Below are positions 36,261 through 56,490 of a DNA stretch of 64,000 bases, in pieces. Source of the DNA: Pseudomonas berkeleyensis (GTDB taxonomy: Bacteria > Pseudomonadota > Gammaproteobacteria > Pseudomonadales > Pseudomonadaceae). The stretch is from assembly GCF_014109765.1 (NCBI RefSeq), contig NZ_CP059139.1:2291001-2355000 (forward strand), in the 5' to 3' direction. Made by a program: the position numbers and the translations under genes. Below the pieces are notes generated by a model. The model searched no databases. It saw only the letters and a program-made list of their open reading frames with translations, and was not told where the DNA came from. Numbering within the stretch: the stretch's first letter is position 1; the number at the start of each line of letters is the position of its first letter.

Positions 36261-36347
36261 TTTGTCAGTTTCATGGAATGGCACAACGCTAGTATGGGTG
36301 TGCCGGTGCGACTCCCGGCATGTCGATGACCATGACGGGTGTGCCCC

Positions 36348-37826: not shown

Positions 37827-40800
37827 ATGGCTGAATTGACGAGTGCACAGATCGATACCCTGGTGCGTGCCGTACAGGTGGTCACGGATTTCCTGAACGG
37901 GCGTGCACCCGACGGGATCGACTCGCTCGAGCAGGCTCTGACCGTCATGAGTCAGATGCTCCGCAGCGCCGGTATTCCCGTGCAGTTGGCCGAAAGCCTG
38001 CGTCAGTCCATTGCCGAGCAGGCCCGCGCTACGCAGTCGCAGCCGGAAGCGGTCGAAGCGTTTTCCTGGGTACAGAGCTGGTTGGCGAATGCTGATATCG
38101 AGGTTCAGAGGCTCGATGAAGGAAGCACGAGCGCGCCCCTCGATGTGCTCACGCCCATGGCGGAACCGGCTCCGTCGATTTCGGCTCCAGCCCCGTTCGA
38201 CAGTACTCATCGTCCTGAAATCACCGGCCTGCTGGGTCAGGACATCGATCGAAGCGATGTGGCGACGCAACCCGAGCGTACGCAACTGACCGGTGACCTC
38301 AGCGGTAGCGGCGTGTTGCCCCCGGGTGTGCCGCCGGAACTGGCCATGCTCAACCTCGACGGCTTCGGCCCTGGTCTGCTCGGTGGCGTTACCACGGGTA
38401 TTGGCCCAGGCGGCGCATCGCAGGGCACTGGCGGGGTGGCAGGGGGCGGTCTCGGTGTGTTCCCCAACTTCCGTGACGACAGCGGCATCGGCAGCAGTCT
38501 GTCTGCTGGCACTGACCGCGGCTTGCCGCCGGACACCTCAGGCAACGAGGCTACGCCGCCGACTGGTAGCAGCCAGCCGACCTCGGTTCTTTCCGTCCGA
38601 GGTGCTGGTGATGTGGTCGAGGGGGATAGCGGCGACACCATGGTGCTGGTATTTACCGTGAGCCGCACCTCCGCAACGGGTGCTGCTCAGGTGCAGTGGA
38701 CACTCAGCGGTCTCGATCCTGCCCTGTTCGGCGGCTCGCTGCCCAGTGGCGCGCTGGTTTTCGCCGACGGCCAGACCGAACAGCAGATTCGTATCGAGGT
38801 GCCGGGCGACTATCTGGCGCAGGGCGACCGCACGGCCGTGGTGTCCTTGAGCAGCCCGAGTGCCGGCAGCCAGCTTGGCCAGTCCAGCGCTTCGGTACAG
38901 ATTCTCGACAACGACGCCACCGTCAGCATCCAGGCCACGCGTCTGCAGGTGTTGGAGGGTGATGAGGGCGAGCAGCAGTTACTGACCTTCGTGGTCACGC
39001 GCAGCAACGGTCGCGCCGAGGCAACCATCGATTGGGCTGCCAGCGGCCTGGACGAAGCGGACATCGGCGGCCCACTGCCTTCCGGCACCCTGACCTTCGG
39101 CATTGGCGAGGTGAGCAAGACCATCAGCATCCCGTTGCTTGGCGACCGCGTGGTCGAGCCCAATGAGGTGCTGCAGGTCAGCCTGAGCAATCCCAGCAGC
39201 AACCTGACCATCGTCACCGCTGACGCCACCACCACGGTGCTCAACGATGACGGCCTGGTGTCGATTCGCGCCAACCAGTCGCAGGTCGTCGAAGGCGACA
39301 CCGGCACCACCACGACCATCAGCTTCACCGTCACCCGTACCGATTCGCTGAGCAGTGGTTCGGTGCGCTGGTCGGTCAGCGGCGTCGATGCCGAAGACCT
39401 GATCGAAGGCATCGACGGCGGCTTCCTGCATTTCGCCGCCGGCGAGACCAGTCGCGACATCGTGCTTACCGTGCGCGGCGACCGTGAGGTCGAGGACGAC
39501 AAGACCCTGACCGTCAGCCTGCAGAGCGAGCAGAGCAACCTGCGTGTCTCTGGCGGTAGTGCCAGTACCGTGATCCTCAACGATGACACCGGCGTCAGCC
39601 TGCGTGGCGTGACCATGGACGTGATGGAAGGTGGTCAGGGTCAGCAGACCGCGATCACCTTCATGGTGACTCGTTCCGAGCTGCTGGATCAGAGCCTCAG
39701 CATCGATTGGCGCTTCGTCCGTGTGGGTACCCATGCCGCCGACGCTAACGACTTTGTCGCCGGGCAGAACCTGCTCAACCTGGCCGATGGCATGCCCAGC
39801 GGTGGTGTCACCTTCGCGCCCAACGAGACGCAGAAGTTGGTCACCGTGTGGGTCAAAGGCGACAACCTGGCGGAAATGGACGAGACCTTCGGCATCGTTC
39901 TGCACAACCCGCCGGCCGGTGTGCAGATCATCAACGGCGAAGCCTACGGCACCATCCGCACCGACGAATCGGTGTACAGCATCGAGGCCGTCACGCCATC
40001 CACCGTCGAGGGTAATGGCGTAGGCGGGGTGCAGGCATTCATCGTCACCCGCACGGGTAACATCAGCAGTGCCGGGCAGATCGGCTACCAGATCGCCGGC
40101 TATGGCGAGCTGCCGACTGACATCAACGATTTTGCCGTCGACCAACCCATGAGCGGCACCGTGCAGTTTGCCGCGGGTGAAAGCAGCAAGGTCATCTACG
40201 TGCGCCTCAACGGTGATACCCAGATCGAGGGCACCGAGAGCTACACCGTGTCGCTGCAGGCGCAGGATGCCAACAGCCAGATCGATGTCGGTGCCGCGCT
40301 GGCCAGCATCGATTCGGATGACCAGGCCGTCTCCATCGTCGCGCGCAATGCCAACGTGCGCGAAGGCACCACCAGCACCACGCCGCTGGAGTTCGTGGTG
40401 ACTCGTACCGGCGAGCTGTCGCTGTCCGGCACCGTGCAGTGGCACGTGCAGGGCTTCGGCAACAACCCGGTGGACGCGGCCGACTTCGGCGGCACCTGGC
40501 CGTCCGGCACTGTCGAGTTCGCCCCCGGCCAAAGCAGTGCGGTGATTCGTTTCAGCGCGACCCCGGACAGCCACTATGAGCCCACTGAAGGGCTGCAGGT
40601 GGTGATCAGCAGTACCACGCCGGGCATGACCATCATTCAGGATCGCGCCAACGGCAGTCTGATCAACGATGACGCGCGCCTGAGCCTTGATGGCAGTGGC
40701 CTGGTCGCAGCCGAGGGCAATAGCGACACGCCGCGTTCGCTGAACTTCACCGTGCAGCGTCAGGGCGACCTGACCCAGAGTGTCAGCGTCGACTGGCGTC

Positions 40801-43800
40801 TGGTGTTCGGCAGCGATGCCAACTCCGCCAATGCCGCCGACTTCCTCGCCGGTACGGCTTTCAGCGGTACCCTCGAATTCGGTCGCGGCGTACAGAGCCT
40901 GGTGGTGACGCTGCCGCTGTCGCCGGACAATCTGGTCGAGCTGGACGAAACCTTCCAGGTGGTGCTGAGCAACCCCAGCCCCGGCGCGGAAATTTCCGTC
41001 GGATCAGCCAATGGCCTGATCCGCAACGACGACGTGGTGTTCAACCTGCTGTCCCAGGCTGACAGCCTGGAAGGCAGCGGCGGCAGTCATGAGCTGCGCT
41101 ACGTGGTCGAACGCAGCGGCGACCTGACCGGCAGCGACACCATCACCTGGAGCCTTGCTCCTGGCGCCATCAATGGCGTGGATGGCAGCGATTTCGTCGG
41201 TGGTGTGTTGCCCAGCGGCACCTTGGTGTTCACTGCGGGCGTCGATCGCATGGAGATCGTTCTGCACATCGCTACCGACTCGCAGCTGGAAGCTGACGAG
41301 AGTTTCGTGCTCAGTCTCGGCACCCCGAACCCGGGCGCTACCGTTGGCAATGGCAGCGTCAACGGCATGCTGCTCAATGACGACCAGCAGTTCGCCATTC
41401 AGGCGCAGACCGCCAGCGTCGCCGAAGGCGGCGACGGCCAGGTGGCGCAACTGAATTTTCTGGTCAACCGCACCGGCTACCTGAACGGTACCGGCAGCGT
41501 GGCCTGGCGCGTGGTCGGCGAGGGCGGTAACCCGGTCGATGGCGCCGATTTCGTCGGCGGCGTGCTGCCGTCCGGCACACTCAACTTCACCAGCGGCCAG
41601 ACCAGCCAGACCATCACCTTGCAGGTGGCGGGCGACTATCGTCTGGAAGCCAGCGAAGGTCTGCGTGTCGAACTCTACGACCCGTCCACCGGCGCCAGCC
41701 TGGGCAATGCCTCGGCCACGGCGACCATCACCAACGATGACACCGGCCTGGCCATCGCCACCACCCGCAGTGGCCTGGTTGAGGGCGACAGTGGCAGCGT
41801 CATTCATGAATTCACAGTGACCCGCTCCGGTGTCACCACGGGCACCACCAGCGTCGACTGGAGTCTGTCTGGCGAGGTCGATGCCGCGGACTTCGTCGGC
41901 GGTGTGCTGCCGTCCGGTACCGTCACCTTCGGCCCGGGCGAGACCAGCAAGGTCATCCAGATATCTGTGCGTGGCGACCGCGATGTGGAGGGTGACGAGT
42001 CCTTCACCGTGACCCTCGGCAACGCCAGTGGTCATGCCGACATCCTGGTCGGCGAGGCCCAGGGCAGCATCGTTTCCGATGACGTCGGCATCAGTATCCA
42101 GGCCGAGCAAGCCGCGGTGGATGAAGGCGCGGCGGGCGAAACCCAGGTGCTGCGCTTTACCGTGACCCGCAGCGGTGACCTGTCCGGCCCGGTCAGCGTG
42201 ACCTGGACTGCCAGCGGCTTGCAGGCCGATGATTTCGTCCTCGGTACTGCGCTCAATGGTCTTGTGGAATTCGCTGCCGGCGAAACCAGCAAGGTGATCG
42301 AGCTGACCCTGGCCGGTGATGCCGTGCTGGAAAGCGACGAAACCCTCACCCTGACCTTGGGTAACCCGGTCTCGAACCCGGCCTATGGCCAGACCCAACT
42401 GCTCACCGACACCGCCAGCACCCTGGTGCGCAACGATGACCTGGCGCTGTCAATCGACGCTGACCAGGCCAGCGCGGCCGAAGGCGATGCCGGCCAGGAG
42501 CGCAGTTTTACCTTCACCGTGACGCGCAGTGGCGACCTGCGCGCCACCAGCGTCGACTGGAAAGTGGCGGTCGGGCAGGGCGTCGATGCCGCCAGCCTGG
42601 CTGATTTCGTCGTGGGCCAGGACGCACTCGGCGCTAACGCCGGCTTGCCGTCCGGCACCGTGGCCTTTGCCGAAGGCCAGACCAGTGTGCAGATCACCGT
42701 GCGTGTGGCCGGCGATGGCCATATCGAGCTGGATGAAAGCTTCAGCGTCGAGTTGCAGGCCCGCGATGGCAACACCGAGCTGACGGTGGCCAGCGCCGAG
42801 ACTCGTATCGACAACGATGACATGGGCTTCTCCATCACCCCTCTGGCCGCCGACAAGGCCGAAGGCAATAGCGGCACCACCGCGTTCACCTTCACCGTGA
42901 CCCGTGCCGGCGACCTGGGCTCGGCTGCCCTGGTGGACTGGTCGCTGTCCGGTATCGCCAATGCCGCGGATTTCGCTGCCAGCAGCGGTACCCTGAGCTT
43001 CGCCGCTGGCGAAGCGAGCAAGACGCTGACCATCCAGGTCAACGGCGACCTGCAGGTGGAGGCCGATGAAACCTTCACCGTCACTCTGAACAACGCCCGC
43101 CTGGAAGACGGCACGCCGCAGGCGGTGGTCGATGGCACGGCCGATGGGGTGATTCGCAACGACGATCAGGGCTTCTCGGTGAACGCCGAGCAGGCCAGCA
43201 TCAGCGAGGGCAACAGCGGCAGCAAGACGGTGATCTACACCATCGTGCGCAGTGGCGACCTCACCGGCAGCGCCACGGTCGACTATCAGGTCACTGGCAG
43301 CAACGGCGGCGACGCAGCCGACACCATCGGTGGTCTACCGGCCGGTAGCCTGACGTTCGCCCCCGGCCAGTCCGAGCGTACCGTCAGCTTCGTTCTGCGT
43401 GGCGACACCCGCGTAGAGGCGGACGAGGCCTTCACCCTGACGCTGAGCAACCCCAGCGCCGGCATCCTGATCAAGCCCAGCGACAGCACGCTGGTCACCA
43501 ACGATGACACCAACTTCAGCATCAGCGCGCCGGCTGCACAGAACGAAGGCGCCACAGGGGATGTCACCGAATTCACCTTCACCGTCACGCGTAGCGGCGT
43601 GACCACTGGCACAGGCTCCGTGCAGTGGCGCCTGGATCCGGCCACGGGCATCAATGCAACCGATTTCCAGGGTAGCCAGGATACCCTTGACAACAACGCC
43701 GGGCTGCCCAGTGGTACGGTCAGCTTCGCAGCCGGCCAGACCAGCCAGACCATCACCATCCGCGTGCGTGGCGACAACACCGTGGAGAGCAATGAGTCGC

Positions 43801-46800
43801 TGCAGGTATCGCTGTTCAACCCAACGGGCGGCACCATCGAAGCGGGCGAGGGCACGGCCAGCACGCAGATCGTCAATGACGACGCCAGCTTCAGCATCGC
43901 CGCCAATGCTGCCACCCAGGCCGAAGGCAATAGCGGCGAGCGCGATGTCGTATTTACCGTGACCCGCAGCGGTTCTCTGAACGGCGCCCGCGACATGACC
44001 TGGACATTGTCCGGTGGCTTGAACGCCAGCGATCTCGGTGTTGGTCAGGCCTCTAGCGGAACACTCAGCTTCGCCGATGGCCAGAGCACTGCCACCGTGG
44101 TGATCCGCGTGCGCGGCGACTCCAATGTCGAGGATGACGAGGCCGTCACCGTGACGCTCTCCAACCCCTCGGCCAACGCCAGCATCGGCACCGCTAGCGC
44201 CACCACCACCCTGACCAACGACGACGCCTCGCTGAGCATCAGCCCATTGTCCGCCGACAAGGGCGAAGGCAACAGCGGCTACGTCGAGTTCACCTTTACC
44301 GTGACCCGCGCTGGCTATACCAACCAGGTCAGTACGGTCGACTGGCGTGTCGATCCCAGCGTCGCCAACTCGGTGAACGGCGCTGACTTCTTCAGCAGCC
44401 AGGCCGCCGGTGTGCTGCGTGATGTCGATGGCATCCCTTATGGCACCGTGACCTTCGCCGCGGGTGAAACCAGCAAGACCATCACCCTGCGCGTGGCCGG
44501 CGACAGCCAGCTCGAAAGCAACGAAACGCTGCGGGTGCTGCTGGAGAACGCCTCGCCGGGTAACGAGATCGCCACGGCCAGTGCCGATGGCGTGGTGCGC
44601 AACGACGATGCCGAGGTGAGCATCACCGGTACTCTGGTGGTCAATGAGGGAGACGCGGGCCATGGTCAGGGCGCGTTCTTCGAGTATACCGTCACCCGTA
44701 CTGGCAACCTGAACCAGACCAGCACGGTTAACTGGGCCGTGCAGCATATCGATACCACCTCCGCCGACTTCACCAATGGCTCGGTGAACCTCAATCCCAC
44801 CGGCACCGTGACATTCGCTGCGAACGAGACCACCCAGACCTTCCGCGTCTACGCCTATGGCGATACCGGGGTCGGCAGCATCGAGGGTAACGAGCGTTTC
44901 AACCTGGTGCTGAGCAACCCCAGCGGTGGCACCTCGATCGGCAGCAATGGCAGCGTGCAGAGCACCATCGCCAACGACGATACCCGGGTCACCATCGAGT
45001 GGGTACAGGCCCGTCAGGCCGAGAAGATCGAGGGGGAAAGCACCACCTACACCATCAACCTGACCCGCAGCGGCGACACCAGCAAGGTTTCTACACTGAA
45101 CTGGGCGGTCAGCGGCGAGCAGGTGAGCCTCAACGGCGGCTGGAGCTGGGAGGGTATCGCGGATGGCACCGACTTCGGCGGCACACTGCCGTCGGGCAAC
45201 GTGCGTTTCGAGGTCGGCCAGACCAGTAAGACCATAACCTTCACCGTGCGCGGTGACGATGTCGTCGAGAACAATGAGTGGTTCAAGGTACTGTTCAGCA
45301 ATACCGGGGGCATCGACGAGTTGTATGCACCGCAGAGCGGTAACCAGGGCATCATCAGTGCCACGCAGCAGACGACCAACAAGAGCGAGACCGGTGTCTA
45401 CTTGTTCGGTGAGATCCAGCGCGACGAAGCCGAGTTCTACATCCAGGACACGCCTACCACCGGGCGCAATCGTTTCGAAGGCGACACTGTTGCCGATGGC
45501 GGCAGTGCGGCCGATGGCTATATCGAGCACACCTTCGCCGTCTATCGCACCATTTCCACCGCTGGCCCGGCATGGGTCGACTGGGCGGTGCAGACCAGTG
45601 TCGGCAATTACGTGTCGATGGATGCCAATGACTTCGCGCCAGGTGAAGCGCTCTCCGGGCGTCTGGAGTTCGTCGATGGGCAATCGGTCGGCTATGTCAC
45701 CATTCGTACACGTGTGGACGATGTTGGTGAATACGATGAAGCCTTCCGTCTCTATCTCACTCAGGCCAGCCCCGGCAGCAGTATCCAATCCGGTTCGACT
45801 GCCAACCCGGGCTACGTCAACAACCATGTGGTGCTACAGAACGACGACACCCGCTTCGATGTCAGCAGCGAGCGTGTCAGCGAGGGTGACGAGCTGGTCT
45901 TCACCATCACCCGCGCCGGCGACCAGCGCGGTAGTGATTCTGTGGATTGGCAGATCGTCCTGGGCGGTTCGGAGACGAGTAACGAATCCAACAACGTACG
46001 CAACGACTGGTACAAGCTCGACCCGGCCGACCTCGACATGGACGCGATCCTGGCCAACAACCCCGGCCTGTCCTGGAACGCGGCCACGCGCACGCTGAGC
46101 GGCAGCTTCACCTTCCTCGATGGCGAGCTGACCAAGACCGTCACCCTCTACACCGTCAACGACACGCTGACCGAGACCTGGCGCGAAGAAGTGAAGATGG
46201 TGCTGAGCAACCCGCAGAACCTCGATGGCGACATCGAGACGCCGTCGCTCGGTTACAACCAGGATGGCTGGGTGCTGAACGACGAGCCGGCGGCACTGCT
46301 TGCCGTGACCAGCAGCACCAGCGAGGTGTTCGAAGGCAATTCAGGCACCACCAGTGTCACCTTCACCATCACCCGTACCGCACAGCCCGGTGGCAGTGTG
46401 GACTACGCCAGCAGCGTGGCCTGGCAGATCGTCGGCGACAACATCAACTGGGGCGGCAATGGCGGGGCGCAGGTCAGCGCCTATGGTGGCAATGCCACAG
46501 CGGTGACGTCGGCAAGCTCCAGCACCACCTATGGTGTGGTGAATTTTGCTGCGGGTGAGACCAGCAAGCAGGTCACGGTAACCTTCCCGGGTGACACCGT
46601 GATCGAGCCGGACACCCTGCTGAACTTCTCGCTGATCTCGCCGAACGAGGCCTACAACCATCCGTTCATCAGCTCGCAATACCGTGACGAGTACGGCCCG
46701 ACCGGCATTGACCCGGCGCAGAGCAGTGCCAGCACGACGCTGAAGAACGACGATATCCGTCTGTGGGTCGGTTCTTTTGGCAACGCCGATCCGGTCGCCA

Positions 46801-49800
46801 GTGGTTACGAGGGGCAGCCGCTGAACTTCACCATCGTGCGCAGCGGGCGCATGGATAACGCGCTGACCATCGGTTACACCCTGACCAACGGCAGCACCAC
46901 CAACGCCGACTTCGTCAGCCTGAGCGGCACCTTCACCCTGCCTGCCGGGATGTCCAGCTACAACGTCTCGCTGCTCGACCTGCTCAAGGCCGACGGCATC
47001 ATCGAGAACACCGAGAATTTCACCCTGCGTCTCAATGCGCCGGCCGACACCACCGGTGCCACCGTGCGTTTTGGCATCGATGGCTGGAGCGCCAGTAGTG
47101 CCACCAATATGAACGTCACCGGCACGCTGTTGGAAAGCGATACGCGCTACACCGCCACGCCGACCAACGCCAGCCAGAGCGAGGCGGATGCCGGCCAGAC
47201 CACCACCTATTCGTTGACGGTCAACCGCACCGGCTATACCGGCGTTGGGTCGGTGAAATGGCGTGTCGAGGGTGTGGGAGCGAACCCGGCCGATGCTGCG
47301 GATTTCTCCGGTGGTGTATTGCCCAGCGGCACCCTGAGCTTTGCCAATGGTGTGATGACCGGCAACATCAACATCGTCGTGCGCGGTGATGGCCAGGTCG
47401 AGAACAACGAAGGCTTCCGCGTGGTGTTCTACGAGGAGACCCTCAACAGCGCCGGTATCGTCAATCGCCCGGTCACCGGGCAGAACAGCCCTGATCTGAC
47501 CATCGTCAACGATGACACCGGCATCAGCATTGCCGATGCCTCGATCACCGAGACCGATGCCAACCAGACCCTGACCTTCACCGTCACCCGTTCGGGCGTC
47601 ATCAGCGGCACTTCCAGCATGAACTGGTCGCTGCTGCACGACACCACCAACGCCGCCGACTTCACCGGTGCCACCAGCGGCGTGGTGAACTTCGCCGCCA
47701 ACCAGACCACGGCGCAGATCACCGTGACCGTTGTCGGCGATGTCACTCCTGAACAGGTGGAGAAGTTCCGCATCGCTCTGAGCAACTTCAGCAGCGACAT
47801 CAGTGACCAGATCCGCACCACGGCCGAAGGCACCATCCGCAATGACGACGCGAGCTTCTCCATCGCCCCGTTGCAGGGTGCGAGTAACGAAGGCCAGGCG
47901 CAGACCTTCGTTATCACCCGCAGCCACAGCACCGAGCAGAACCAGACCATCAACTGGCAGGTGCTGTTCAACGGCACGGCCAACAACGCCGATCTCAGCG
48001 GGCCGCTGTCGGGCTCGGTGACCTTTGCGCCGGGCGAACTGACCAAGACCATCAGCGTGCAGTCCAACCAGGACGCCGTGGCCGAGGCCGACGAAACCTA
48101 CAGCGTGCAGATCACCCTGGGCGCGGGCACTACGGGTGATACCATCACCCAGGCCGCTGCCGAGGGCACCATCCTCAACGACGATGCGGCCTTCAACATC
48201 GTGGCTGATCAGAGTGAACTGGCCGAAGGGCATAGCGGCACTACGGCCTTTACCTTCACCGTACAGCGCAGTGGCGATACAAGCGGCAGTGCCAGCGTCA
48301 ACTGGCGCCTGGGGTCGATGCTGGCTGGCGTGGCCGATTTCGCCACGGCCGATCAGTTGGGCGACAACAGCGGCCTGCCGAGCGGCAGCCTGACGTTCGC
48401 CGATGGCGAGTCGAGCAAGACCATCACCGTGCTGGTCAACGGCGATACCCTGGTGGAGGGCGACGAAACCTTCCAGATCGTGCTGGGCAACCCGGTCGGT
48501 GCGCAGATCCAGACCGGCAGCGCCAGCAGCACCATCGTCAACGACGATGCCAGCATCAGCATCGCCGCCACCGATGCCAGCAAGGCCGAGGGCAACAGCG
48601 GCACAACCGCATTCACCTTCACCATCACCCGCACCGGTGCGCTAGATCAGCCGAAGACCGTCGATTGGGCGGTGATTGGGCATGGTGCACATCCGGTCGA
48701 TGGCGCTGACTTCGAATTTGGCTCATTGCCGTCCGGCTCGCTGGTACTGCCGGCCGGCCAGGCCAGCGTCACCCTGACCATCAACGTGCGCGGCGATGTC
48801 CTGGCGGAACACGACGAAGGTTTCAGCGTGGTGCTGAGCAACCCGGCCAGCGGCCTGGTGATTGACCAGGCCAGCGCAGACGGCCTGATCATCGCCGATG
48901 ACGTGGTGATCGACGTGACCGCACCGGCCGCCCAGGCCGAAGGCGATGATGGCCAGACCACCTGGTTCGATTTCGTGCTCACCCGAAGCGGCAAGCTGTC
49001 CGGTAGCGAAACCATCAACTGGAGCGTGGCTGGTATCGGCGCCAATCCTGCCTCGGCCGATGACTTCCTGCAGACCAGCGGTAGCGTCACCTTCGCGGCC
49101 GGTCAGGAGCAACTGACCATTCGCGTGCCAGTGCGTGGCGACTACAGCGGCGAGGCCAACGAGGACTTCCGCCTCAGTCTCAGCAGCTCCGATGGCGTGG
49201 TGTTCACCCAGGCCACGGCTGATGCCACCATCGTCAACGACGACGTGTCGCTGACTATCGTGGCCACTGACGCGCGTCACGTCGAAGGTCATGACGGCCT
49301 GCAGACCGTCTACACCTTCACCGTCAGCCGCAGCGGCAACCTCGATCTGGCCACCAGTGTGGACTGGAGCCTGCAGGGGTTGGCCGATGCCGCCGACTTC
49401 CTCGGTGGCGTGCTGCCCAGCGGCACGTTGAACTTCGCTTCGGGCGAGGCCGGCAGCCAGACCATCAGCATCACCGTCATCGGTGATCGCGCGGTCGAGC
49501 CGGACGAAACCTTCCAGGTGGTGCTCGGCAATGCATCGGCTGGCTCCGACATCAAGGTCGGCAGTGCCACCGGTACCATCGTCAGCGATGACGTGCACTG
49601 GGATATCGGTGTCACCACCACGCCGGTCGAGGGCGACAGTGGCGCCACGGGCTACCAGTTCCTGGTTACCCGTACTGGCAGCGGCCTGGCCACGACCCTG
49701 GCCTGGAGCGTGGCTGGCAGCGGTGCCAATCCGGCTTCAGCGGACGATTTCTTCGGCGGCCAACTGCCGTTCGGTGAGCTGACCTTCGCCGAAGGTCAGA

Positions 49801-52800
49801 TGAGCCAGACCATTACCGTCTGGGTCGCCGGTGACAATCAGTTGGAGCCGGACGAAGGCTTCACCGTCAGCTTGCAGGCACCGAGCGACAGCCTCAGCCA
49901 CAGCTTCGCCAATCAGCAGGTGGACGCGGTGATCCGCAACGATGACGACGTGTTCGCCATCGCCCCGCGCGCTGCCGATGCCGCCGAGGGCACCTCGCTG
50001 ACCTTTACCGTGACCCGTACCGGTAGTACCGAAGGTACGTCTACGGTCAACTGGCGCATCAACCATGGCGATACCGATGTCAGTGATTTCTTCGCCTCCA
50101 GCGGCACGCTGACCTTCGCCGACGGGCAGAGCGAGATGGTGCTGACTATCCCGGTACGCAGCGACCGCGACGTCGAAATCGACGAACACTTCAGTGTCGA
50201 GCTGTATCAGCCAGGCCCTGGCAGCACCATCGATGCAGGTGCCGGCAGTGCCGCTGGGGTGATCCGCAACGACGACATCGACCTGACCCTGGCCAGTGTC
50301 GTCGCGCAGGTTCACGAAGGCGATAACGGCACGCCGGGGCGCCTGCACTTCACCGTTACCCGCAGTGGCGATACCAGCGGTGAAACCTCGGTCGACTGGC
50401 AGGTGCAGGCCGGTTCGGCCACCGCAGCTGACTTCCCTGGTGGCGTGCTGCCGTCCGGCTCCGTGGTGTTCGCCGCGGGTGAAACCCACAAGGACATCTA
50501 CATCGATGTCCTTGGCGACGGTTTCGACGAGGGCGACGAGCAGTTCACCCTGCACCTGTCCAACCCGACCGGTAACGCCGATATCGTCGGCAACGATCAG
50601 GTCGGCACCCTCGTCAACGACGACGATAGCCTGGCCCTGAGCGTGGTGACCCGCGAGCTGGTCGAAGGCGACAGCGGCTTGACCCTGTTCACCTTCCGCA
50701 TCGACCGTACCGGCAGCGCCGTGGGCACTGCCAGCGTCGACTGGCGCGCGGCCGGTATCGGCCCGCACCCGCTGAGTGACGCCGAGTTCGCCGCATTGAC
50801 CGGCACCGTACACTTCGCTGACGGCGAGACCAGCAAAACCTTCACCGTCGCCGTGCGCGGTGACGAGCTGGGCGAGGAAGACGAGAGCTTCGCCGTGCAA
50901 CTGGAGAATCCCAGCTACGGTTCCACCATCACCACCGGCCCGGTCAGCGCCGTGGTACTCAACGACGACCCGGTGCTGTGGATCAGCGCCGATGCCGCCA
51001 CGGTGGTGGAGGGCAGCGATGGCCTGCAGACTCCGGTGACCTTCACCGTTACCCGCGGTGGCGATCTGTCCGGCCCGGCCAGCGTGCTCTGGGAGGTGGT
51101 GCCGTCGGGCGCCAACCCGGTCAATGCCGAGGACTTCGGTGGTATCTACGTCAGTGGTGTGGTCGCTTTCGGTGTCGGTGAAACCAGCAAGACCATCACC
51201 GTCTGGGTGGACGCCGACACACTCGGTGAGCAGGACGAGACCTTCTCCGTGGTGCTCAGTGACGCCGAAGGCGCCACCATCCTCACTGGCGAGGCCAGCG
51301 TCACCATCCTCAATGATGACCGTGGCCTTAGCATCGCTGCCCTGGGCAGCGACAGCCAGCGCGAAGGCGACACGGGCGAGGTGATCGAGTTCGTCTACCG
51401 CGTGGAGCGGGTCGGTGACAGCACCGGCAGCGTCAGCGTCGACTGGTCGCTGCGCGGCAACGGTACCTATCCGGCCAACGCCGGCAGCTTCGTCGGTGGT
51501 GTGCTGCCGTCCGGCTCGCTGGTATTCGCCGATGGCGAAACCTACAAGGACATCGTCATCCGCGTGCAGGGTGACGACGTGCTCGGCCCGGATCAGGGCT
51601 TCGAGGTGGTGCTCAGCGACCCGCAGGGCATCGACCTGATCAACGACCGTGCCAGCGGCACCATCCTCAACGACGACAATCAGTTCGCCATTCGTGTGGT
51701 CGATAGCGTGCTGGCCGAGGGCAATGGCGGCGCCACCACGGTGTTCCGCTTCACCGTCACCCGCAGTGGCGACACCTCGTCAGCGGCCAGCATCGACTGG
51801 TCGGTGGCCGGCAGTGGCGCGGCTCCGGCGGACGGCGCCGATTTCGTGGGTGGCGTGCTGCCTACCGGTACCCTGCATTTCGCCGCCGGTGAGACCAGCA
51901 AGGTGCTGGAGATCGCCGTCAACGGCGATGACCTCGGCGAGTCCGATGAACAGTTCACCGTGCAACTGTCCAGCAGCGGTGGTGGCAGCAGCGTCAACCC
52001 GCTGCAGGGCAGCGCACGAGCCACCATCCAGAGCGACGATGTCGCGCTGACCGTGCTGGCGCTGGACAACAGCCGACTGGAAGGTGCTCCTGGCACCACC
52101 ACGCCGCTGACCTACCGCATTCTGCGCGCGGGGCCGGACGATGTTGCACTGACCATTCACTACAGCATCGTCGGGGCGGTGGATGCCAACGACTTCACCA
52201 TCCCGCTGGCCGGCACCATCACTCTGGCTGCTGGCGTGTCGGAGATGATCTTCAATCTGCCGATCCGTGGTGATTCGCTGCGTGAGGGCGACGAGTCGTT
52301 CGACCTGACCTTCACTCACCCGGCCATCGCCGGCGGTGCCACCACCCTTGGCGGTACCATTCGCGACGACGACCTGGGCCTGGCCATCAGCGGCCCGGAT
52401 AGCCTGGTGGAAGGCGACAGCGGCCTGCAGACGGTGACCTACCAGGTGACCCGCAACCCGACGTCCAGTGCCGAGACCTTCTACTGGAGCGTCACGCCGG
52501 GTGCAGGGCAGGGCGTGGATGCCGACGACTTCGGTGGCACCTTGCCTTCGGGCAGCGTCACCTTCGCCGCTGGCAGTACCACGGCCAGCTTCAGCTTCCA
52601 GATCAGTGGTGATCGTGCCGTGGAGGCAGACGAGCAGATGTCCATCGTCCTGCGTGCCACGGCCAACAGTCCGTACGTGCTGATCAGCAAGGACGTGGTA
52701 CTGCGCAATGACGACCAGGCAGGGGCGGGGGATGACCTACTCACCGGGACGTCAGGCGCCGACAACCTGTCTGGCCTGGGTGGCAATGACCGGTTGTTCG

Positions 52801-53357
52801 GCGGTGCCGGCAGCGACGTGCTCAATGGTGGTGATGGCGATGACCTGTTGGTCGGTGGCACGGGGGCCGATGTGTTGATCGGCGGCGCGGGGGCGGATCG
52901 CTTCCACTACACCTCGCCAGCCGATGGCATGGATGCGATCCTGGACTTCCAGGCCGGCGTCGATCACCTGACCTTCGACCCGACGGCCTTCGGTGGCCTG
53001 AATGGCCTGACCTCGGTCTCGCAAGCCTTCACCGGCGACATCATGCAGACCCTGGCGCAACTGGCCGGGCAGGGTAATGCCGACGTCTACCGGGTCAGCT
53101 TCGCGCCAGGGCAGTTCCAGTTCGGCACTGGTAGCAACGGCCACCTGGACGAGCTGGAGGCGGCGATCACGGGCAACGGGCAGCACAGTGGTGCGGCTTT
53201 CTTCCTGATCTCCAATGGCGACGTCACGCGTTTGTATTACGATGCCGACACGTCCAGCGGTACCGATGGCAGCGGCCTGGTGGCGCTCGCCGAGCTGGCC
53301 AACCAGCCCGACGCGCACAGCCTGCCGCAGGACATCATCCAGCCTTACACGGTGTAA
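37827..53357 (+). CDS. Giant RTX/Calx-beta repeat adhesin, type I secretion substrate
   Basis: This uninterrupted gene encodes 5176 residues. Residues 1-95 are helical, with no signal peptide; 110-250 form a Pro/Gly-rich linker with a glycine-rich stretch (GFGPGLLGGVTTGIGPGG). Residues about 252-4963 hold 39 Calx-beta-like repeats averaging 121 residues, with conserved VEGDSG, FTVTRSGD, GGVLPSGT and NDD boxes. RTX nonapeptides (GGAGSDVLNGGDGDD) follow at about 4968-5025. The end is a 150-residue C-terminal secretion region. It is a surface adhesin for biofilm or cell contact. I saw no LapG-type TAAG site near the N-terminus and no lapD/lapG genes nearby, so how the protein is held or released is unclear. 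AGGAG precedes the ATG. Confidence 0.93.
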   Translation: MAELTSAQIDTLVRAVQVVTDFLNGRAPDGIDSLEQALTVMSQMLRSAGIPVQLAESLRQSIAEQARATQSQPEAVEAFSWVQSWLANADIEVQRLDEGSTSAPLDVLTPMAEPAPSISAPAPFDSTHRPEITGLLGQDIDRSDVATQPERTQLTGDLSGSGVLPPGVPPELAMLNLDGFGPGLLGGVTTGIGPGGASQGTGGVAGGGLGVFPNFRDDSGIGSSLSAGTDRGLPPDTSGNEATPPTGSSQPTSVLSVRGAGDVVEGDSGDTMVLVFTVSRTSATGAAQVQWTLSGLDPALFGGSLPSGALVFADGQTEQQIRIEVPGDYLAQGDRTAVVSLSSPSAGSQLGQSSASVQILDNDATVSIQATRLQVLEGDEGEQQLLTFVVTRSNGRAEATIDWAASGLDEADIGGPLPSGTLTFGIGEVSKTISIPLLGDRVVEPNEVLQVSLSNPSSNLTIVTADATTTVLNDDGLVSIRANQSQVVEGDTGTTTTISFTVTRTDSLSSGSVRWSVSGVDAEDLIEGIDGGFLHFAAGETSRDIVLTVRGDREVEDDKTLTVSLQSEQSNLRVSGGSASTVILNDDTGVSLRGVTMDVMEGGQGQQTAITFMVTRSELLDQSLSIDWRFVRVGTHAADANDFVAGQNLLNLADGMPSGGVTFAPNETQKLVTVWVKGDNLAEMDETFGIVLHNPPAGVQIINGEAYGTIRTDESVYSIEAVTPSTVEGNGVGGVQAFIVTRTGNISSAGQIGYQIAGYGELPTDINDFAVDQPMSGTVQFAAGESSKVIYVRLNGDTQIEGTESYTVSLQAQDANSQIDVGAALASIDSDDQAVSIVARNANVREGTTSTTPLEFVVTRTGELSLSGTVQWHVQGFGNNPVDAADFGGTWPSGTVEFAPGQSSAVIRFSATPDSHYEPTEGLQVVISSTTPGMTIIQDRANGSLINDDARLSLDGSGLVAAEGNSDTPRSLNFTVQRQGDLTQSVSVDWRLVFGSDANSANAADFLAGTAFSGTLEFGRGVQSLVVTLPLSPDNLVELDETFQVVLSNPSPGAEISVGSANGLIRNDDVVFNLLSQADSLEGSGGSHELRYVVERSGDLTGSDTITWSLAPGAINGVDGSDFVGGVLPSGTLVFTAGVDRMEIVLHIATDSQLEADESFVLSLGTPNPGATVGNGSVNGMLLNDDQQFAIQAQTASVAEGGDGQVAQLNFLVNRTGYLNGTGSVAWRVVGEGGNPVDGADFVGGVLPSGTLNFTSGQTSQTITLQVAGDYRLEASEGLRVELYDPSTGASLGNASATATITNDDTGLAIATTRSGLVEGDSGSVIHEFTVTRSGVTTGTTSVDWSLSGEVDAADFVGGVLPSGTVTFGPGETSKVIQISVRGDRDVEGDESFTVTLGNASGHADILVGEAQGSIVSDDVGISIQAEQAAVDEGAAGETQVLRFTVTRSGDLSGPVSVTWTASGLQADDFVLGTALNGLVEFAAGETSKVIELTLAGDAVLESDETLTLTLGNPVSNPAYGQTQLLTDTASTLVRNDDLALSIDADQASAAEGDAGQERSFTFTVTRSGDLRATSVDWKVAVGQGVDAASLADFVVGQDALGANAGLPSGTVAFAEGQTSVQITVRVAGDGHIELDESFSVELQARDGNTELTVASAETRIDNDDMGFSITPLAADKAEGNSGTTAFTFTVTRAGDLGSAALVDWSLSGIANAADFAASSGTLSFAAGEASKTLTIQVNGDLQVEADETFTVTLNNARLEDGTPQAVVDGTADGVIRNDDQGFSVNAEQASISEGNSGSKTVIYTIVRSGDLTGSATVDYQVTGSNGGDAADTIGGLPAGSLTFAPGQSERTVSFVLRGDTRVEADEAFTLTLSNPSAGILIKPSDSTLVTNDDTNFSISAPAAQNEGATGDVTEFTFTVTRSGVTTGTGSVQWRLDPATGINATDFQGSQDTLDNNAGLPSGTVSFAAGQTSQTITIRVRGDNTVESNESLQVSLFNPTGGTIEAGEGTASTQIVNDDASFSIAANAATQAEGNSGERDVVFTVTRSGSLNGARDMTWTLSGGLNASDLGVGQASSGTLSFADGQSTATVVIRVRGDSNVEDDEAVTVTLSNPSANASIGTASATTTLTNDDASLSISPLSADKGEGNSGYVEFTFTVTRAGYTNQVSTVDWRVDPSVANSVNGADFFSSQAAGVLRDVDGIPYGTVTFAAGETSKTITLRVAGDSQLESNETLRVLLENASPGNEIATASADGVVRNDDAEVSITGTLVVNEGDAGHGQGAFFEYTVTRTGNLNQTSTVNWAVQHIDTTSADFTNGSVNLNPTGTVTFAANETTQTFRVYAYGDTGVGSIEGNERFNLVLSNPSGGTSIGSNGSVQSTIANDDTRVTIEWVQARQAEKIEGESTTYTINLTRSGDTSKVSTLNWAVSGEQVSLNGGWSWEGIADGTDFGGTLPSGNVRFEVGQTSKTITFTVRGDDVVENNEWFKVLFSNTGGIDELYAPQSGNQGIISATQQTTNKSETGVYLFGEIQRDEAEFYIQDTPTTGRNRFEGDTVADGGSAADGYIEHTFAVYRTISTAGPAWVDWAVQTSVGNYVSMDANDFAPGEALSGRLEFVDGQSVGYVTIRTRVDDVGEYDEAFRLYLTQASPGSSIQSGSTANPGYVNNHVVLQNDDTRFDVSSERVSEGDELVFTITRAGDQRGSDSVDWQIVLGGSETSNESNNVRNDWYKLDPADLDMDAILANNPGLSWNAATRTLSGSFTFLDGELTKTVTLYTVNDTLTETWREEVKMVLSNPQNLDGDIETPSLGYNQDGWVLNDEPAALLAVTSSTSEVFEGNSGTTSVTFTITRTAQPGGSVDYASSVAWQIVGDNINWGGNGGAQVSAYGGNATAVTSASSSTTYGVVNFAAGETSKQVTVTFPGDTVIEPDTLLNFSLISPNEAYNHPFISSQYRDEYGPTGIDPAQSSASTTLKNDDIRLWVGSFGNADPVASGYEGQPLNFTIVRSGRMDNALTIGYTLTNGSTTNADFVSLSGTFTLPAGMSSYNVSLLDLLKADGIIENTENFTLRLNAPADTTGATVRFGIDGWSASSATNMNVTGTLLESDTRYTATPTNASQSEADAGQTTTYSLTVNRTGYTGVGSVKWRVEGVGANPADAADFSGGVLPSGTLSFANGVMTGNINIVVRGDGQVENNEGFRVVFYEETLNSAGIVNRPVTGQNSPDLTIVNDDTGISIADASITETDANQTLTFTVTRSGVISGTSSMNWSLLHDTTNAADFTGATSGVVNFAANQTTAQITVTVVGDVTPEQVEKFRIALSNFSSDISDQIRTTAEGTIRNDDASFSIAPLQGASNEGQAQTFVITRSHSTEQNQTINWQVLFNGTANNADLSGPLSGSVTFAPGELTKTISVQSNQDAVAEADETYSVQITLGAGTTGDTITQAAAEGTILNDDAAFNIVADQSELAEGHSGTTAFTFTVQRSGDTSGSASVNWRLGSMLAGVADFATADQLGDNSGLPSGSLTFADGESSKTITVLVNGDTLVEGDETFQIVLGNPVGAQIQTGSASSTIVNDDASISIAATDASKAEGNSGTTAFTFTITRTGALDQPKTVDWAVIGHGAHPVDGADFEFGSLPSGSLVLPAGQASVTLTINVRGDVLAEHDEGFSVVLSNPASGLVIDQASADGLIIADDVVIDVTAPAAQAEGDDGQTTWFDFVLTRSGKLSGSETINWSVAGIGANPASADDFLQTSGSVTFAAGQEQLTIRVPVRGDYSGEANEDFRLSLSSSDGVVFTQATADATIVNDDVSLTIVATDARHVEGHDGLQTVYTFTVSRSGNLDLATSVDWSLQGLADAADFLGGVLPSGTLNFASGEAGSQTISITVIGDRAVEPDETFQVVLGNASAGSDIKVGSATGTIVSDDVHWDIGVTTTPVEGDSGATGYQFLVTRTGSGLATTLAWSVAGSGANPASADDFFGGQLPFGELTFAEGQMSQTITVWVAGDNQLEPDEGFTVSLQAPSDSLSHSFANQQVDAVIRNDDDVFAIAPRAADAAEGTSLTFTVTRTGSTEGTSTVNWRINHGDTDVSDFFASSGTLTFADGQSEMVLTIPVRSDRDVEIDEHFSVELYQPGPGSTIDAGAGSAAGVIRNDDIDLTLASVVAQVHEGDNGTPGRLHFTVTRSGDTSGETSVDWQVQAGSATAADFPGGVLPSGSVVFAAGETHKDIYIDVLGDGFDEGDEQFTLHLSNPTGNADIVGNDQVGTLVNDDDSLALSVVTRELVEGDSGLTLFTFRIDRTGSAVGTASVDWRAAGIGPHPLSDAEFAALTGTVHFADGETSKTFTVAVRGDELGEEDESFAVQLENPSYGSTITTGPVSAVVLNDDPVLWISADAATVVEGSDGLQTPVTFTVTRGGDLSGPASVLWEVVPSGANPVNAEDFGGIYVSGVVAFGVGETSKTITVWVDADTLGEQDETFSVVLSDAEGATILTGEASVTILNDDRGLSIAALGSDSQREGDTGEVIEFVYRVERVGDSTGSVSVDWSLRGNGTYPANAGSFVGGVLPSGSLVFADGETYKDIVIRVQGDDVLGPDQGFEVVLSDPQGIDLINDRASGTILNDDNQFAIRVVDSVLAEGNGGATTVFRFTVTRSGDTSSAASIDWSVAGSGAAPADGADFVGGVLPTGTLHFAAGETSKVLEIAVNGDDLGESDEQFTVQLSSSGGGSSVNPLQGSARATIQSDDVALTVLALDNSRLEGAPGTTTPLTYRILRAGPDDVALTIHYSIVGAVDANDFTIPLAGTITLAAGVSEMIFNLPIRGDSLREGDESFDLTFTHPAIAGGATTLGGTIRDDDLGLAISGPDSLVEGDSGLQTVTYQVTRNPTSSAETFYWSVTPGAGQGVDADDFGGTLPSGSVTFAAGSTTASFSFQISGDRAVEADEQMSIVLRATANSPYVLISKDVVLRNDDQAGAGDDLLTGTSGADNLSGLGGNDRLFGGAGSDVLNGGDGDDLLVGGTGADVLIGGAGADRFHYTSPADGMDAILDFQAGVDHLTFDPTAFGGLNGLTSVSQAFTGDIMQTLAQLAGQGNADVYRVSFAPGQFQFGTGSNGHLDELEAAITGNGQHSGAAFFLISNGDVTRLYYDADTSSGTDGSGLVALAELANQPDAHSLPQDIIQPYTV
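38580..52716 (+). repeat. 39 tandem Calx-beta-like repeats within the adhesin gene
   Basis: I counted 39 repeats by their NDD/SDD-type ends. Most are 110-127 residues. Repeats 19-22 (about 45000-46760) are longer (130-160) and diverged, with Trp/Asn-rich insertions. The nucleotide repeats are not identical, but phrases such as GGCGTGCTGCCGTCCGGC recur. This region is prone to assembly errors and to repeat-number variation. Confidence 0.88.
52720..52905 (+). repeat. Short RTX nonapeptide block
   Basis: About five GGxGxDxLx-type nonapeptides (GNDRLFGGAGSD, GGDGDDLLVGG and similar) form a single small calcium-binding beta-roll at the end of the adhesin, just before the secretion signal. It probably helps folding after export. 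Confidence 0.9.
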
Positions 53358-53405: not shown

Positions 53406-55085
53406 ATGAACGAGTTTTTCCGCCGAATCGCCCTGCAACCCAGGCTGCGCCTGGAGCTGTGGCTGTCCTCGCTGTTGATCAATCTGCTCGGTCTGGCCAG
53501 CTCGTTGTACAGCATCCATGTTCTCAACCGGTACCTGGCACTGGGTGTCGACGCGACCCTGGTGACCCTGACCCTCGGCGCCGTCATGGCGGTGGGCTTC
53601 GAGGTGCTGCTACGCAATGCGCGTCTGCGCGTGGCGCAGTGGTTGTGCGCACGGGCCGATACGGAGTTGGGTGAGACGCTGTTCGAAGGCGCCGTGCGTG
53701 GCCAGTACGCCCTGGTCGAGCAGTTGCCGCATACGGCGCGGCGGGAAATCCTTTCCGGGCAGAGCACCGTGCAGCAATGCTTCGGTGCGCCCAACCTGGT
53801 GACCCTGCTGGACACGCCGTTCGCTTTCGTCTTCGTCGTGGTGCTGGGCATGCTCAGCCCGTTCCTGGCCTGCATGGCTTTGCTGGTGATGGCCGGTGTC
53901 ACGCTGGTGTCGCTGTTGGCCCAGCGCCGCCTGCGTGAACCGATGGAGGCGCAGAGTCGCATCGCCATGCAAATGGCCGGTTACCAGCACAACCTCACTG
54001 CTGGCGGCGAAATGGTGCGGGCTTTTTCCGCAGCCGATGCGCTGAAGGAAAAGTGGCGGGCCTGCGCCGACGATCAGGCCGAGCAGCGCGCTCAACTCAA
54101 TCGTCTGCAGAACACCATGCAGAACGCCAGCTACGCCGGCACCCTGATCCTCAGCATGGTGATCATGGGGCTGGGCGCGCGCGAGGTGCTGGCTGGTAAC
54201 CTCGACATCGGTTCGTTGATCGGCTGCAACATTCTCGCCAGTCGAGCCTTGGCGGCGCTGACCCGCGCGCTCGGCCTGGGCGAGCAGATCGGCCGTGGTC
54301 AGCGCGCACTGGAGCTGGCGCGGCAGTTGTGCGCTATTCCGCGTGAGCGTGCCGAGGGCGTGCGCCTGGGTCAGACCCGCGGCAGCCTGCGTTTCGAGGA
54401 CATGGCTTTCGGTTACCCGAAGCAGGCCGTGCCGGTGTTGGAGCATTTCGATTATTCGTTGGAGGCCGGCAAGGTGCTGGTTTTCACCGGTGCCAATGGC
54501 AGCGGCAAGACGACCCTGGCGCGCCTGCTGGTGGGGCTGCTGGAGCCCAGCCGTGGTCATCTGTTGGTCGATGGCATGGATCTGCGCCAGGCCGATCCGC
54601 AATGGTGGCGTCGTCAAGTCGCCTACCTGCCACAGGAACCGCAGTTCTTCGATGGCACCCTGCGTGAGAACCTCTGTGTGCTGGCGCCGGAAACCGCTGA
54701 TGCCAAGGTACTGGAGTTGTGCCGGGAGCTGGCGGTGGGCGCCTTCGTCGAAGGTGGTGCGGAAGGATTGGGCCTGGTGGTGCGCAACGGTGGCGGCAGT
54801 ATTCCGCTGGGTATCCGTCGGCGCCTGGCGCTGGTACGCGCGGTGCTCGGTGGTGGGCAACTGGTGGTACTGGACGACCCTACCGAGGGCGTCGATGCCG
54901 AAGGATGCAAGGCCATCGCGGCGCTGCTCAGCCGCCTGGTACGCGAGGGGCGTACGCTGGTGATGATGAGCAATGAATCGTTCATCCTCGGTGCTGCCGA
55001 TACGGTCATCGACCTCAACCACAAGCCGGTACCGCGCGTGCTGCGAGATGGCAAACCTGCACGCGAAGGAGTCCAGCATGGCTGA
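53406..55085 (+). CDS. Type I secretion ABC exporter, LapB/HlyB-like, with a degenerate ATPase domain
   Basis: A 559-residue exporter with a transmembrane domain (about 15-290, six helices) and an ATP-binding domain (about 325-545). There is no N-terminal C39-like domain. Walker A is normal (GANGSGKTT, Lys368). The signature loop reads GGGSIPLGIRRRLAL instead of LSGGQ. Walker B ends LVVLDDPTEG with Asp491 where the catalytic Glu belongs, and the switch His is Asn523 (LVMMSNES). By family knowledge these changes should slow or alter ATP hydrolysis. Its place between the adhesin and the HlyD gene nonetheless makes it the adhesin exporter. The adaptor gene overlaps its end by eight bases. Confidence 0.88.
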   Translation: MNEFFRRIALQPRLRLELWLSSLLINLLGLASSLYSIHVLNRYLALGVDATLVTLTLGAVMAVGFEVLLRNARLRVAQWLCARADTELGETLFEGAVRGQYALVEQLPHTARREILSGQSTVQQCFGAPNLVTLLDTPFAFVFVVVLGMLSPFLACMALLVMAGVTLVSLLAQRRLREPMEAQSRIAMQMAGYQHNLTAGGEMVRAFSAADALKEKWRACADDQAEQRAQLNRLQNTMQNASYAGTLILSMVIMGLGAREVLAGNLDIGSLIGCNILASRALAALTRALGLGEQIGRGQRALELARQLCAIPRERAEGVRLGQTRGSLRFEDMAFGYPKQAVPVLEHFDYSLEAGKVLVFTGANGSGKTTLARLLVGLLEPSRGHLLVDGMDLRQADPQWWRRQVAYLPQEPQFFDGTLRENLCVLAPETADAKVLELCRELAVGAFVEGGAEGLGLVVRNGGGSIPLGIRRRLALVRAVLGGGQLVVLDDPTEGVDAEGCKAIAALLSRLVREGRTLVMMSNESFILGAADTVIDLNHKPVPRVLRDGKPAREGVQHG

Positions 55086-56490
55086 GCAAGGCATGCCCAT
55101 GAATGACGCACCTAGCCGCCTTGGTCGCATCGCTGACCGGATATTGGGCGTCTTCGAGAACCATCCATTGCTGAGTCGCGTGGCCGGTTTCTTCCTGCCC
55201 GGCAAGACCGACCCGGCATTGCCTGGCGACGAACTGCTGGGCAGCCGCCTGACCATCCGCCTGCTGGCGCTGATGCTCGGTGCCATGCTGCTGTGGTCGC
55301 TGTTCTTCCCGCTGGACATCGCCAGCCACTCCACCGGTGAGGTGACTTCGTTGGGGCAGACCAAGCTGGTTCAGCACCTGGAGGGCGGTATCGTGCGCCG
55401 TATCCTGGTGCGTGAAGGACAGCGTGTGGCAGCTGGCGAGCCGCTGGCGGAAATCGAACGTGTCGCCATGATGTCCGAAGGGCGCGAGACCGAGGCGCTG
55501 CTGGCTGCGTTGCGTATCCGCTCCCTGCGTCTGGAAGCGCAACTGGCCGGTGCCGACGACATGATCGTGCCCGAAGAGCTGGCGCGATACTTCCCCGAGC
55601 AGGTCAAGGTCAACCGTGACCTGTTCATCGCCCAGAAGAGCCGTCTGGACAGCCGCTCCGAGGAGCAGCAGCAGAAAATCCAGCAACGTCGCGCTGAGGA
55701 AAAGGAACTCAAGGCGCGCATCGGCCACGTCAGTTCCAAGCTCAAGCTGCTGCGCGAGCAGATCGCCATCAGCCAGAAGTTGATGGCCGAGGGGTTGGCC
55801 AACCGCTACGAACACCTGGAACTGCTCAAGGACGAACAGCAATTGCGTGGCACCCTGCAGGAAACCGAGGCGTCACTGGGCCGCGTATACGCAGGTCTGA
55901 AGCAGGAGCAGGCAGCCCTCACCAGCCTGGATTCGGGCGGCCACGAGGAATTGCAGAAGGAGCTGGCCGAAGTGCGCCGGCAGATCACCGAGCTGCAGGA
56001 GCGGCTGACGAAGTTCTCCGACAGCCGTGAGCGCCAGGTCGTGCGTTCGCCCATCGAAGGCGTGGTCATGACCCTGCAGGTGGTCACCGAGGGCGGGGTG
56101 ATTCAGCCCGGCGGTACCCTGATGACCCTGGTGCCGGCGGACGAACCGCTGATGATCGAGACGCGCCTGCCGGTCGGTGACATCGGTATGGTCACCCCTG
56201 GGCAGCAGGCTCGTATCCAGCTGGTATCGTCGATCGCCCGCGGCTTTCAGCCTATCGATGGTGAAGTGGTCGATATCAGCCCGGACTCGGTGCTTGACGA
56301 GCAGCGTATCCCGTATTTCCGCGTACGTATCCGCCCGGCGCAGGACGCCTTCGAGCATTCTGGCGCGCGTTATCCCTTGCTGCCCGGCGTACCTGTGAGT
56401 GTCGCCATCCTCACTGGCGAGCGCTCGTTGTTCAACTATATCGCCGGCCCGCTCACCGACGGTATGAACCGTTCGTTCAGCGAGCCCTGA
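55078..56490 (+). CDS. HlyD/LapC-type membrane fusion protein of the adhesin secretion system
   Basis: A 470-residue periplasmic adaptor. A short cytoplasmic N-terminus leads to one membrane helix (about 58-80, LALMLGAMLLWSLFFPL). A lipoyl half-motif, QHLEGGIVRRILVREGQRV, follows, then long coiled coils (about 180-330), the second lipoyl half (SPIEGVVMTLQVVTEGGVIQPG), and a beta-barrel end (FRVRIRPA). It links the ABC exporter to the TolC-like channel. The ATG at 55078 has GAAGGAG upstream and overlaps the exporter gene, which shows coupling. It is the last gene of the operon. Confidence 0.93.
   Translation: MAEQGMPMNDAPSRLGRIADRILGVFENHPLLSRVAGFFLPGKTDPALPGDELLGSRLTIRLLALMLGAMLLWSLFFPLDIASHSTGEVTSLGQTKLVQHLEGGIVRRILVREGQRVAAGEPLAEIERVAMMSEGRETEALLAALRIRSLRLEAQLAGADDMIVPEELARYFPEQVKVNRDLFIAQKSRLDSRSEEQQQKIQQRRAEEKELKARIGHVSSKLKLLREQIAISQKLMAEGLANRYEHLELLKDEQQLRGTLQETEASLGRVYAGLKQEQAALTSLDSGGHEELQKELAEVRRQITELQERLTKFSDSRERQVVRSPIEGVVMTLQVVTEGGVIQPGGTLMTLVPADEPLMIETRLPVGDIGMVTPGQQARIQLVSSIARGFQPIDGEVVDISPDSVLDEQRIPYFRVRIRPAQDAFEHSGARYPLLPGVPVSVAILTGERSLFNYIAGPLTDGMNRSFSEP

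Follow-up and report, generated by a model that had tools for sequence, protein, structure and literature searches.

An adhesin-operon exporter of Pseudomonas berkeleyensis with substitutions at three ATP-site motifs belongs to a conserved subfamily of type I secretion exporters

The LSGGQ signature, the catalytic glutamate and the switch histidine are the marks of a canonical ATPase site in ATP-binding cassette (ABC) proteins, and not of a fold family. Among the excerpts of published work drawn on here (cited by PMC number), the H662A substitution in HlyB leaves <0.1% of the ATPase activity (PMC6222333), and sites in which the catalytic Glu is replaced by Asp are described as still hydrolysing ATP, but much more slowly than the transport cycle (PMC7756269). 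For type I secretion itself, the choice between two models, hydrolysis of ATP at each step or hydrolysis as a gate only, is left open (PMC5018854). The ABC exporter considered here is encoded by Pseudomonas berkeleyensis in a window of 64,000 nucleotides (contig NZ_CP059139.1 of assembly GCF_014109765.1, positions 2,291,001 to 2,355,000 of the forward strand; all coordinates below are those of the window), in a type I secretion system (T1SS) operon together with a giant adhesin. A sequence-only reading had described three altered ATPase motifs beside a normal Walker A, and had expected a homodimer with such sites to hydrolyse ATP poorly; the motifs are borne out by residue numbering and by alignments to solved exporters, and poor hydrolysis may indeed be anticipated by analogy with HlyB H662A and with the Glu-to-Asp sites. 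Two features were beyond the view of that reading: the substitutions mark out a clade, and the catalytic position retains an acid. On sequence comparison the exporter appears to represent a functional and conserved T1SS variant subfamily, rather than an isolated exporter that depends on energy from elsewhere.

The exporter gene is an intact open reading frame specifying 559 amino acids (aa) at 53406..55085 on the + strand, with a Pfam match to ABC_tran of 3.9e-23 and an ABC_membrane score of 24.5 bits, below the cut-off of 28. Scripted residue numbering located a canonical Walker A (GANGSGKTT, residues 362-370, 54489..54515), a Q-loop (YLPQEP, residues 407-412) with the canonical Gln410 at 54633..54635, and the D-loop residue Asp497, and alignments placed Walker B at residues 487-491 (54864..54878) with the canonical Asp490, all on the + strand, such that the motifs for ATP binding are all there. 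LSGGQ, catalytic Glu and switch His are all replaced: on the same strand, the signature site at residues 466-470 (54801..54815, the base at which the match to the DNA pattern described below also begins) reads IPLGI followed by RRR, Asp491 (54876-54878) stands at the position of the catalytic Glu, and Asn523 (54972..54974) at that of the switch His. The five phmmer alignments displayed, each to a solved ABC exporter, have no gap in any of these motifs and pair IPLGI with LSGGQ, Asp491 with Glu (with Gln in 8zq4) and Asn523 with His. A conserved Glu or His at other nearby residues, proposed earlier as the observation that would tell against the substitutions, was looked for by alignment and none was found. 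In the 138-row alignment described below, no replacement His is conserved at positions 505-545 among the 65 rows lacking the switch His (hereafter His-less), the commonest being present in 5 of 65 at position 516, and the sole common Glu at positions 480-502, Glu494, is present in 31 of the 32 Asp rows without a switch His and in 46 of the 50 subfamily rows that keep it; being common in the latter too, Glu494 is a mark of the subfamily and no substitute. Asp491, Asn523 and IPLGI are, on these alignments, confirmed as true substitutions and not shifted residues.

The altered state is widely shared among relatives. Among the 120 listed of 1440 homologues, the residues at the catalytic and switch positions are Asp/Asn in 61, Glu/His in 18, Glu/Asn in 17, Glu/Arg in 13, Asp/His in 6 and other pairs in 4, with one unreadable (P0036), and since 61 of the 120 share Asp/Asn the state goes beyond chance. 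Of these 61, sixteen (the query itself among them) show 99-100% identity to the query, and among the listed relatives, which include close ones in Stutzerimonas, Pseudomonas solani, Neopusillimonas, Paucimonas, Amphritea and Magnetospirillum, the Asp/Asn state reaches down to about 43-45% identity. A tree was quickly built, with SH-aLRT support only, from 138 rows of <90% identity (from 202) with the motif columns excluded; P proteins of <=500 aa, P0121, locus frames covering <480 profile positions and rows of >=90% identity to a retained row were left out, long branches are flagged, and 37 of the 135 inner branches are open. On this tree the subfamily comprises 115 non-redundant rows, separated with a support of 100 from 22 rows carrying LSGGQ, Glu and His together with L042 (LPGGI, Glu, His), these 23 being a small canonical comparison set, mostly from Pseudomonas and its order.

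The first Gly of the signature is altered in all 115 subfamily rows, and the subfamily is marked by a [LI][SAP]xG[IV]RRR-like sequence which replaces LSGGQRQR. The switch His is kept in 50 rows, is found in none of a 59-row clade (support 99), and is missing from six more rows elsewhere. The catalytic position is occupied by Glu or Asp in 115 of 115 rows, with at least seven changes on the tree: Asp occurs not only in the main Asp/Asn group but also in two Asp/His groups that stand apart from each other, together 10 rows (P0097, P0099, P0105, P0112, P0113, P0120, L137, L138, L141 and L142), and P0022, 83% identical to the query, has Glu again. None of the 65 His-less rows lacks the Walker A Lys or the catalytic acid, and the Q-loop Gln, the Walker B Asp, the D-loop Asp and the second Gly of the signature are kept in 64 rows each, the signature Ser position being Pro in 48, Ser in 15 and Ala in 2. 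On this quick tree the signature changed first, the His was lost next in the 59-row clade, and Glu and Asp interchange. The coupling of these changes is one of tree order and not of a statistical test, as independent-pairs tests of His loss against catalytic Asp or signature Pro yielded 6 and 4 pairs with a nearly invariant second trait and were uninformative. As the change is common to a whole family of intact exporters, it looks like a working variant and not a broken gene.

A second Pseudomonas genome (G536) carries the same gene set, matching the window at 87.7% DNA identity from 36735, which is the edge of the compared stretch, to the HlyD stop at 56490. The set lies at different loci in the two genomes, since the genes that follow differ, being recC here and a two-partner secretion pair in G536. 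The two exporters share 95.7% amino-acid identity, with Asp491, Asn523 and IPLGI identical, and the pairwise dN of 0.024 and dS of 0.553 give a dN/dS of 0.044 (0.057 for the nucleotide domain), which speaks for a gene that is probably under maintenance. The four-gene set is rare in the genomes sampled. Within the genus, two genomes out of 298, P. berkeleyensis being one, carry a DNA pattern for IP[LV]GIRRRLA; within the class it was found in a single genome out of 369, that of P. berkeleyensis, and a slightly wider pattern in 0 of 299 genomes of one other family, such patterns detecting only part of the subfamily. With the subfamily profile A1, 1 of 283 genomes of the order (again its own) gave a match at E 1e-130 or better, and 33 of 398 genomes of the phylum, including its own, had a best match of 1e-140 or better, the next dropping to 3.7e-108; the other 32 are all outside the class. 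Matches listed from a contig scan with alignment A1 were mostly weak ones to other ABC proteins, L041 and L042 out of the 80 loci listed entering the tree, and among plasmid records the 30 listed of 1233 were <=37% identical to the query.

Comparison with curated families sets the exporter apart from the types to which it is closest. Its best curated NCBIfam match is TIGR03375 (LssB/LapB) at 340.4 bits against a cut-off of 693.1; it scores 271.9 against 510.15 for the PrtD subfamily TIGR01842 and 214.1 against 725.55 for the HlyB subfamily TIGR01846, all three below threshold. It resembles LapB/LssB-type exporters in this match and in being encoded with a TolC-type protein, an HlyD-type protein and a giant RTX adhesin, but differs in its score far below the cut-off, in its altered signature, catalytic and switch residues, and in lacking an N-terminal C39-like domain, the TIGR03375 match beginning at profile position 142. 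A single-chain model (pLDDT 89.3) contains a transmembrane and a nucleotide domain, and structure searches, of which the best 50 rows were used with no conclusion drawn from the absence of any family, assigned it the fold shared by type IV (ABCB-like) exporters such as HlyB and PrtD. The likeness to PrtD and HlyB exporters (5l22, 8dck) extends over the whole chain, but at 22% identity, and all 22 LSGGQ rows in the tree carry both Glu and His. In the openly licensed literature, covered through titles and abstract openings and with subscription papers mostly outside its scope, no paper on this subfamily was found.

Our preferred explanation, which we hold to be fairly probable, is that the exporter is the dedicated T1SS inner-membrane exporter of the Calx-beta/RTX adhesin and belongs to a distinct subfamily, acting as an ATP-dependent homodimer with a remodelled and probably slow site; the homodimer, the ATP dependence and the slow rate are what we infer. 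The Walker A, Q-loop, Walker B Asp and D-loop, all preserved, would bind ATP, the bound ATP would close the two nucleotide domains and thereby open a path for the unfolded adhesin, and hydrolysis, helped by the carboxylate of Asp491 and proceeding without a switch His, would reset the exporter, probably slowly. The constancy of an acid at the catalytic position argues that hydrolysis is retained, and the loss of the His and Ser argues that it is slow or differently assisted. A slow cycle would be compatible with the kinetics of secretion, as the 5176 residues of the adhesin, at the HlyA rate of ~16 aa per second per transporter (PMC5018854), would take about 5 minutes. With all changes in a single chain, a homodimer would carry them at each of its two sites, and we propose more tentatively, at somewhat less than even confidence, that the His-less homodimeric clade works with Pro for the signature Ser and Asp for the catalytic Glu at both sites. 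The ATP site may have been rebuilt around the constant carboxylate and a partner-chain Arg of the GIRRR helix, or ATP binding may serve as a slow gate; Arg472 is a candidate for such compensation.

Several points weigh against this explanation. HlyB, among the nearest solved homologues, loses both ATPase activity and secretion on loss of the switch His alone (PMC6222333, PMC5018854), and in ABCB1 with both Walker B Glu residues changed to Asp the residual ATPase activity is the same as with Gln or Ala (PMC7756269); by analogy, catalysis by the exporter could be nil. No biochemical data on any member of the subfamily were found, the exporter model is of one chain, and the estimate of selection is from one gene pair.

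The exporter might instead be a gate worked by ATP binding with practically no hydrolysis, the driving force for export coming from the proton motive force or from the adhesin as it folds outside. Such a gate would suit the replacement of three of the residues engaged with the gamma-phosphate or the attacking water, and for HlyA both a gating role of ATP hydrolysis and an early role of the proton motive force have been discussed (PMC5018854). We consider it unlikely, as the catalytic acid found in 65 of 65 His-less rows would be superfluous for a pure gate, the rate of HlyA secretion is unchanged by Ca2+ (PMC5018854), and none of the four operon genes matched a proton-channel family, no search for such a gene elsewhere having been made.

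The exporter might also be the non-catalytic half of a heterodimer, with a canonical partner encoded elsewhere, as in TM287/288, TAP and perhaps RtxB/RtxE of the Vibrio MARTX system. Asp for the catalytic Glu, an altered H-loop and an altered signature are marks of the degenerate sites of heterodimers such as TM287/288, TAP1/2 and TmrAB, the first two being frequent there, for example in ABCB2/B3 (PMC7756269), and the P. berkeleyensis genome has canonical exporters that could serve. The Vibrio MARTX T1SS is alike in secreting a very large RTX protein and is a published case with two ABC proteins, RtxB and RtxE, both encoded in its locus and both apparently necessary; the present operon, in contrast, has one ABC gene, and is also of a different kind from the BapP system, in which a T1SS has tandem ABC genes and a LolD-like ATPase (PMC12153261). 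Human ABC proteins with a degenerate site have that site at NBS1 but the altered signature in NBD2, the changes spanning both nucleotide domains (PMC7756269), whereas the exporter has all its changes in one chain, so that neither composite site would be normal even with a canonical partner, which would argue for a homodimer.

The gene neighbourhoods likewise make a heterodimer quite unlikely. No partner half-transporter is encoded beside the exporter in its own operon or at any of the 22 subfamily loci read, namely L153 of Azospirillum, G536 of Pseudomonas and 20 others spread over 17 genomes of the phylum, where all frames, overlapping ones included, were counted and several stretches end at contig ends. 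Each of the 22 loci has a single exporter-type ABC frame and an HlyD frame (some 6 kb apart in L166), and 17 have a TolC-type frame inside the stretch. There were only two other ABC hits, namely in L153 a frame of 563 aa whose annotation is that of a sugar importer ATPase, and in L170 a frame that, at 310 aa, is not of exporter length. Six of the 22 exporters are His-less, one of them (G536) with Asp/Asn, and as the other 16 keep the His, the evidence of the loci on the altered state rests on few of them. Furthermore, each of the four canonical T1SS-type exporters of the P. berkeleyensis genome comes with HlyD and TolC-type genes of its own. The neighbourhoods, which would not reveal a distant partner gene, thus lend no support to the proposal that another ATPase provides the energy. 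A 1022-aa Azospirillum gene preceding the exporter, annotated as 'ABC transporter substrate-binding protein', was considered as a partner and rejected, being a periplasmic-binding/MscS-channel fusion. Fusions of this type, of 1022-1036 aa, were seen near several subfamily exporters (L153:16807-19875, L164:4366-7467, L174:5827-8934 and L175:10743-13853), and at L163:8832-11825 the exporter and the HlyD-type adaptor form a single 998-aa frame (Pfam ABC_membrane, ABC_tran and HlyD_3).

A well-compensated ATPase with the usual turnover, in which the motif changes would be of taxonomic interest only, would be in keeping with the interchange of Glu and Asp along the tree and with Arg472 on the signature helix, which could compensate. 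Arg occupies this position in 63 of the 65 His-less rows, yet also in 42 of the 50 His-keeping subfamily rows, and does not track the loss (21 of the 23 canonical rows have Gln). Under thresholds set by the analyst, the positions that follow the His loss number only five (36, 116, 197, 297 and 526), and there is therefore no obvious replacement; in addition, His substitutions in HlyB, HisP and MalK leave <2% of the activity, Pdr5 being named as controversial (PMC6222333), and ordinary turnover seems to us very unlikely. A decaying or misassembled gene, to which the joint alteration of several motifs and the apparent frame changes in recC and recB downstream might point, is scarcely credible in view of the intact frame, the dN/dS of the G536 pair, near-identical proteins on other contigs and Asp/Asn in relatives as distant as those described above.

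The size of the substrate does not appear to account for the altered site. A special mechanism for a 5000-residue substrate had been suggested, but three LapB-type exporters of the same genome, scoring above the family cut-off and having LSGGQ, Glu and His as well as HlyD and TolC-type genes, each adjoin an open frame that is cut by the stretch and has a minimum length of 2066 to 2694 aa, and as canonical exporters adjoin very large genes too, a very large substrate needs no altered site; the fourth canonical set of the genome, L176, has an ABC protein without a C39-like part. The proposed link to Calx-beta adhesins fared unevenly: it holds for G536, the one Asp/Asn relative with readable context, but such an adhesin was not seen beside the His-less exporters of L173, where the large frame has EF-hand and M26-type hits, or L172, where it has no Pfam hit.

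A natural family of His-less exporters, with three canonical exporters beside very large genes in one of its genomes, offers a direct comparison. To write off all Asp/Asn ABC sites as dead would be to misjudge an entire, apparently functional family and, if true, either a rebuilt site or a slow gate would contradict the rule derived from HlyB that the switch His is indispensable for type I secretion.

The operon is compact and lies on the + strand, and the description of it as complete holds, with TolC-type, adhesin, ABC and HlyD genes in that order, the exporter thus being encoded with both partner types and an RTX substrate. The TolC-family outer-membrane channel (36339..37730, +, 463 aa, GTG start) matches Pfam OEP at 2.5e-52 and TIGR01844 at 8.9e-56 with 189.6 bits, below the cut-off of 225.15. 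The adhesin (37827..53357, +, 5176 aa), scanned in three pieces with Pfam and two with NCBIfam, has Calx-beta repeats and C-terminal RTX nonapeptide repeats; no N-terminal retention module of the kind expected in a LapA-like adhesin under LapG/LapD control was among the NCBIfam or Pfam matches to its first 1200 aa, whether the libraries hold such a model being unchecked. The HlyD-type membrane fusion protein (55078..56490, +, 470 aa) matches TIGR01843 at 8e-109 with 364 bits against a cut-off of 208.65, its ATG start at 55078, which overlaps the exporter stop, being the choice of the analyst.

Downstream, recC and recB (56659-63702, +) occupy three overlapping frames of 838, 541 and 995 aa, with Pfam matches in the order Exonuc_V_gamma, RecC_C with the start of UvrD, and the remainder of UvrD; frame changes are apparent near 59.15 and 60.74 kb, there is no stop between recC and recB, and the changes could be assembly errors or real. 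Further upstream, an AAA_15/AAA_21 ATPase of 523 aa (28114-29685, -) has weak matches, below cut-off, to retron-effector and defence ATPases, and for its neighbour of 327 aa (27134-28117) neither Pfam nor NCBIfam gave a family match at E 0.001. Two-component genes adjoin the adhesin operon, with a 7TMR-DISM histidine kinase at 32513-34519 (-) and a response regulator at 35439-36122 (-), and between them a protein (34688-35458, +) whose Pfam match is to a winged-helix output domain only; the two-component genes at 32513-36122 are possible regulators of the adhesin operon.
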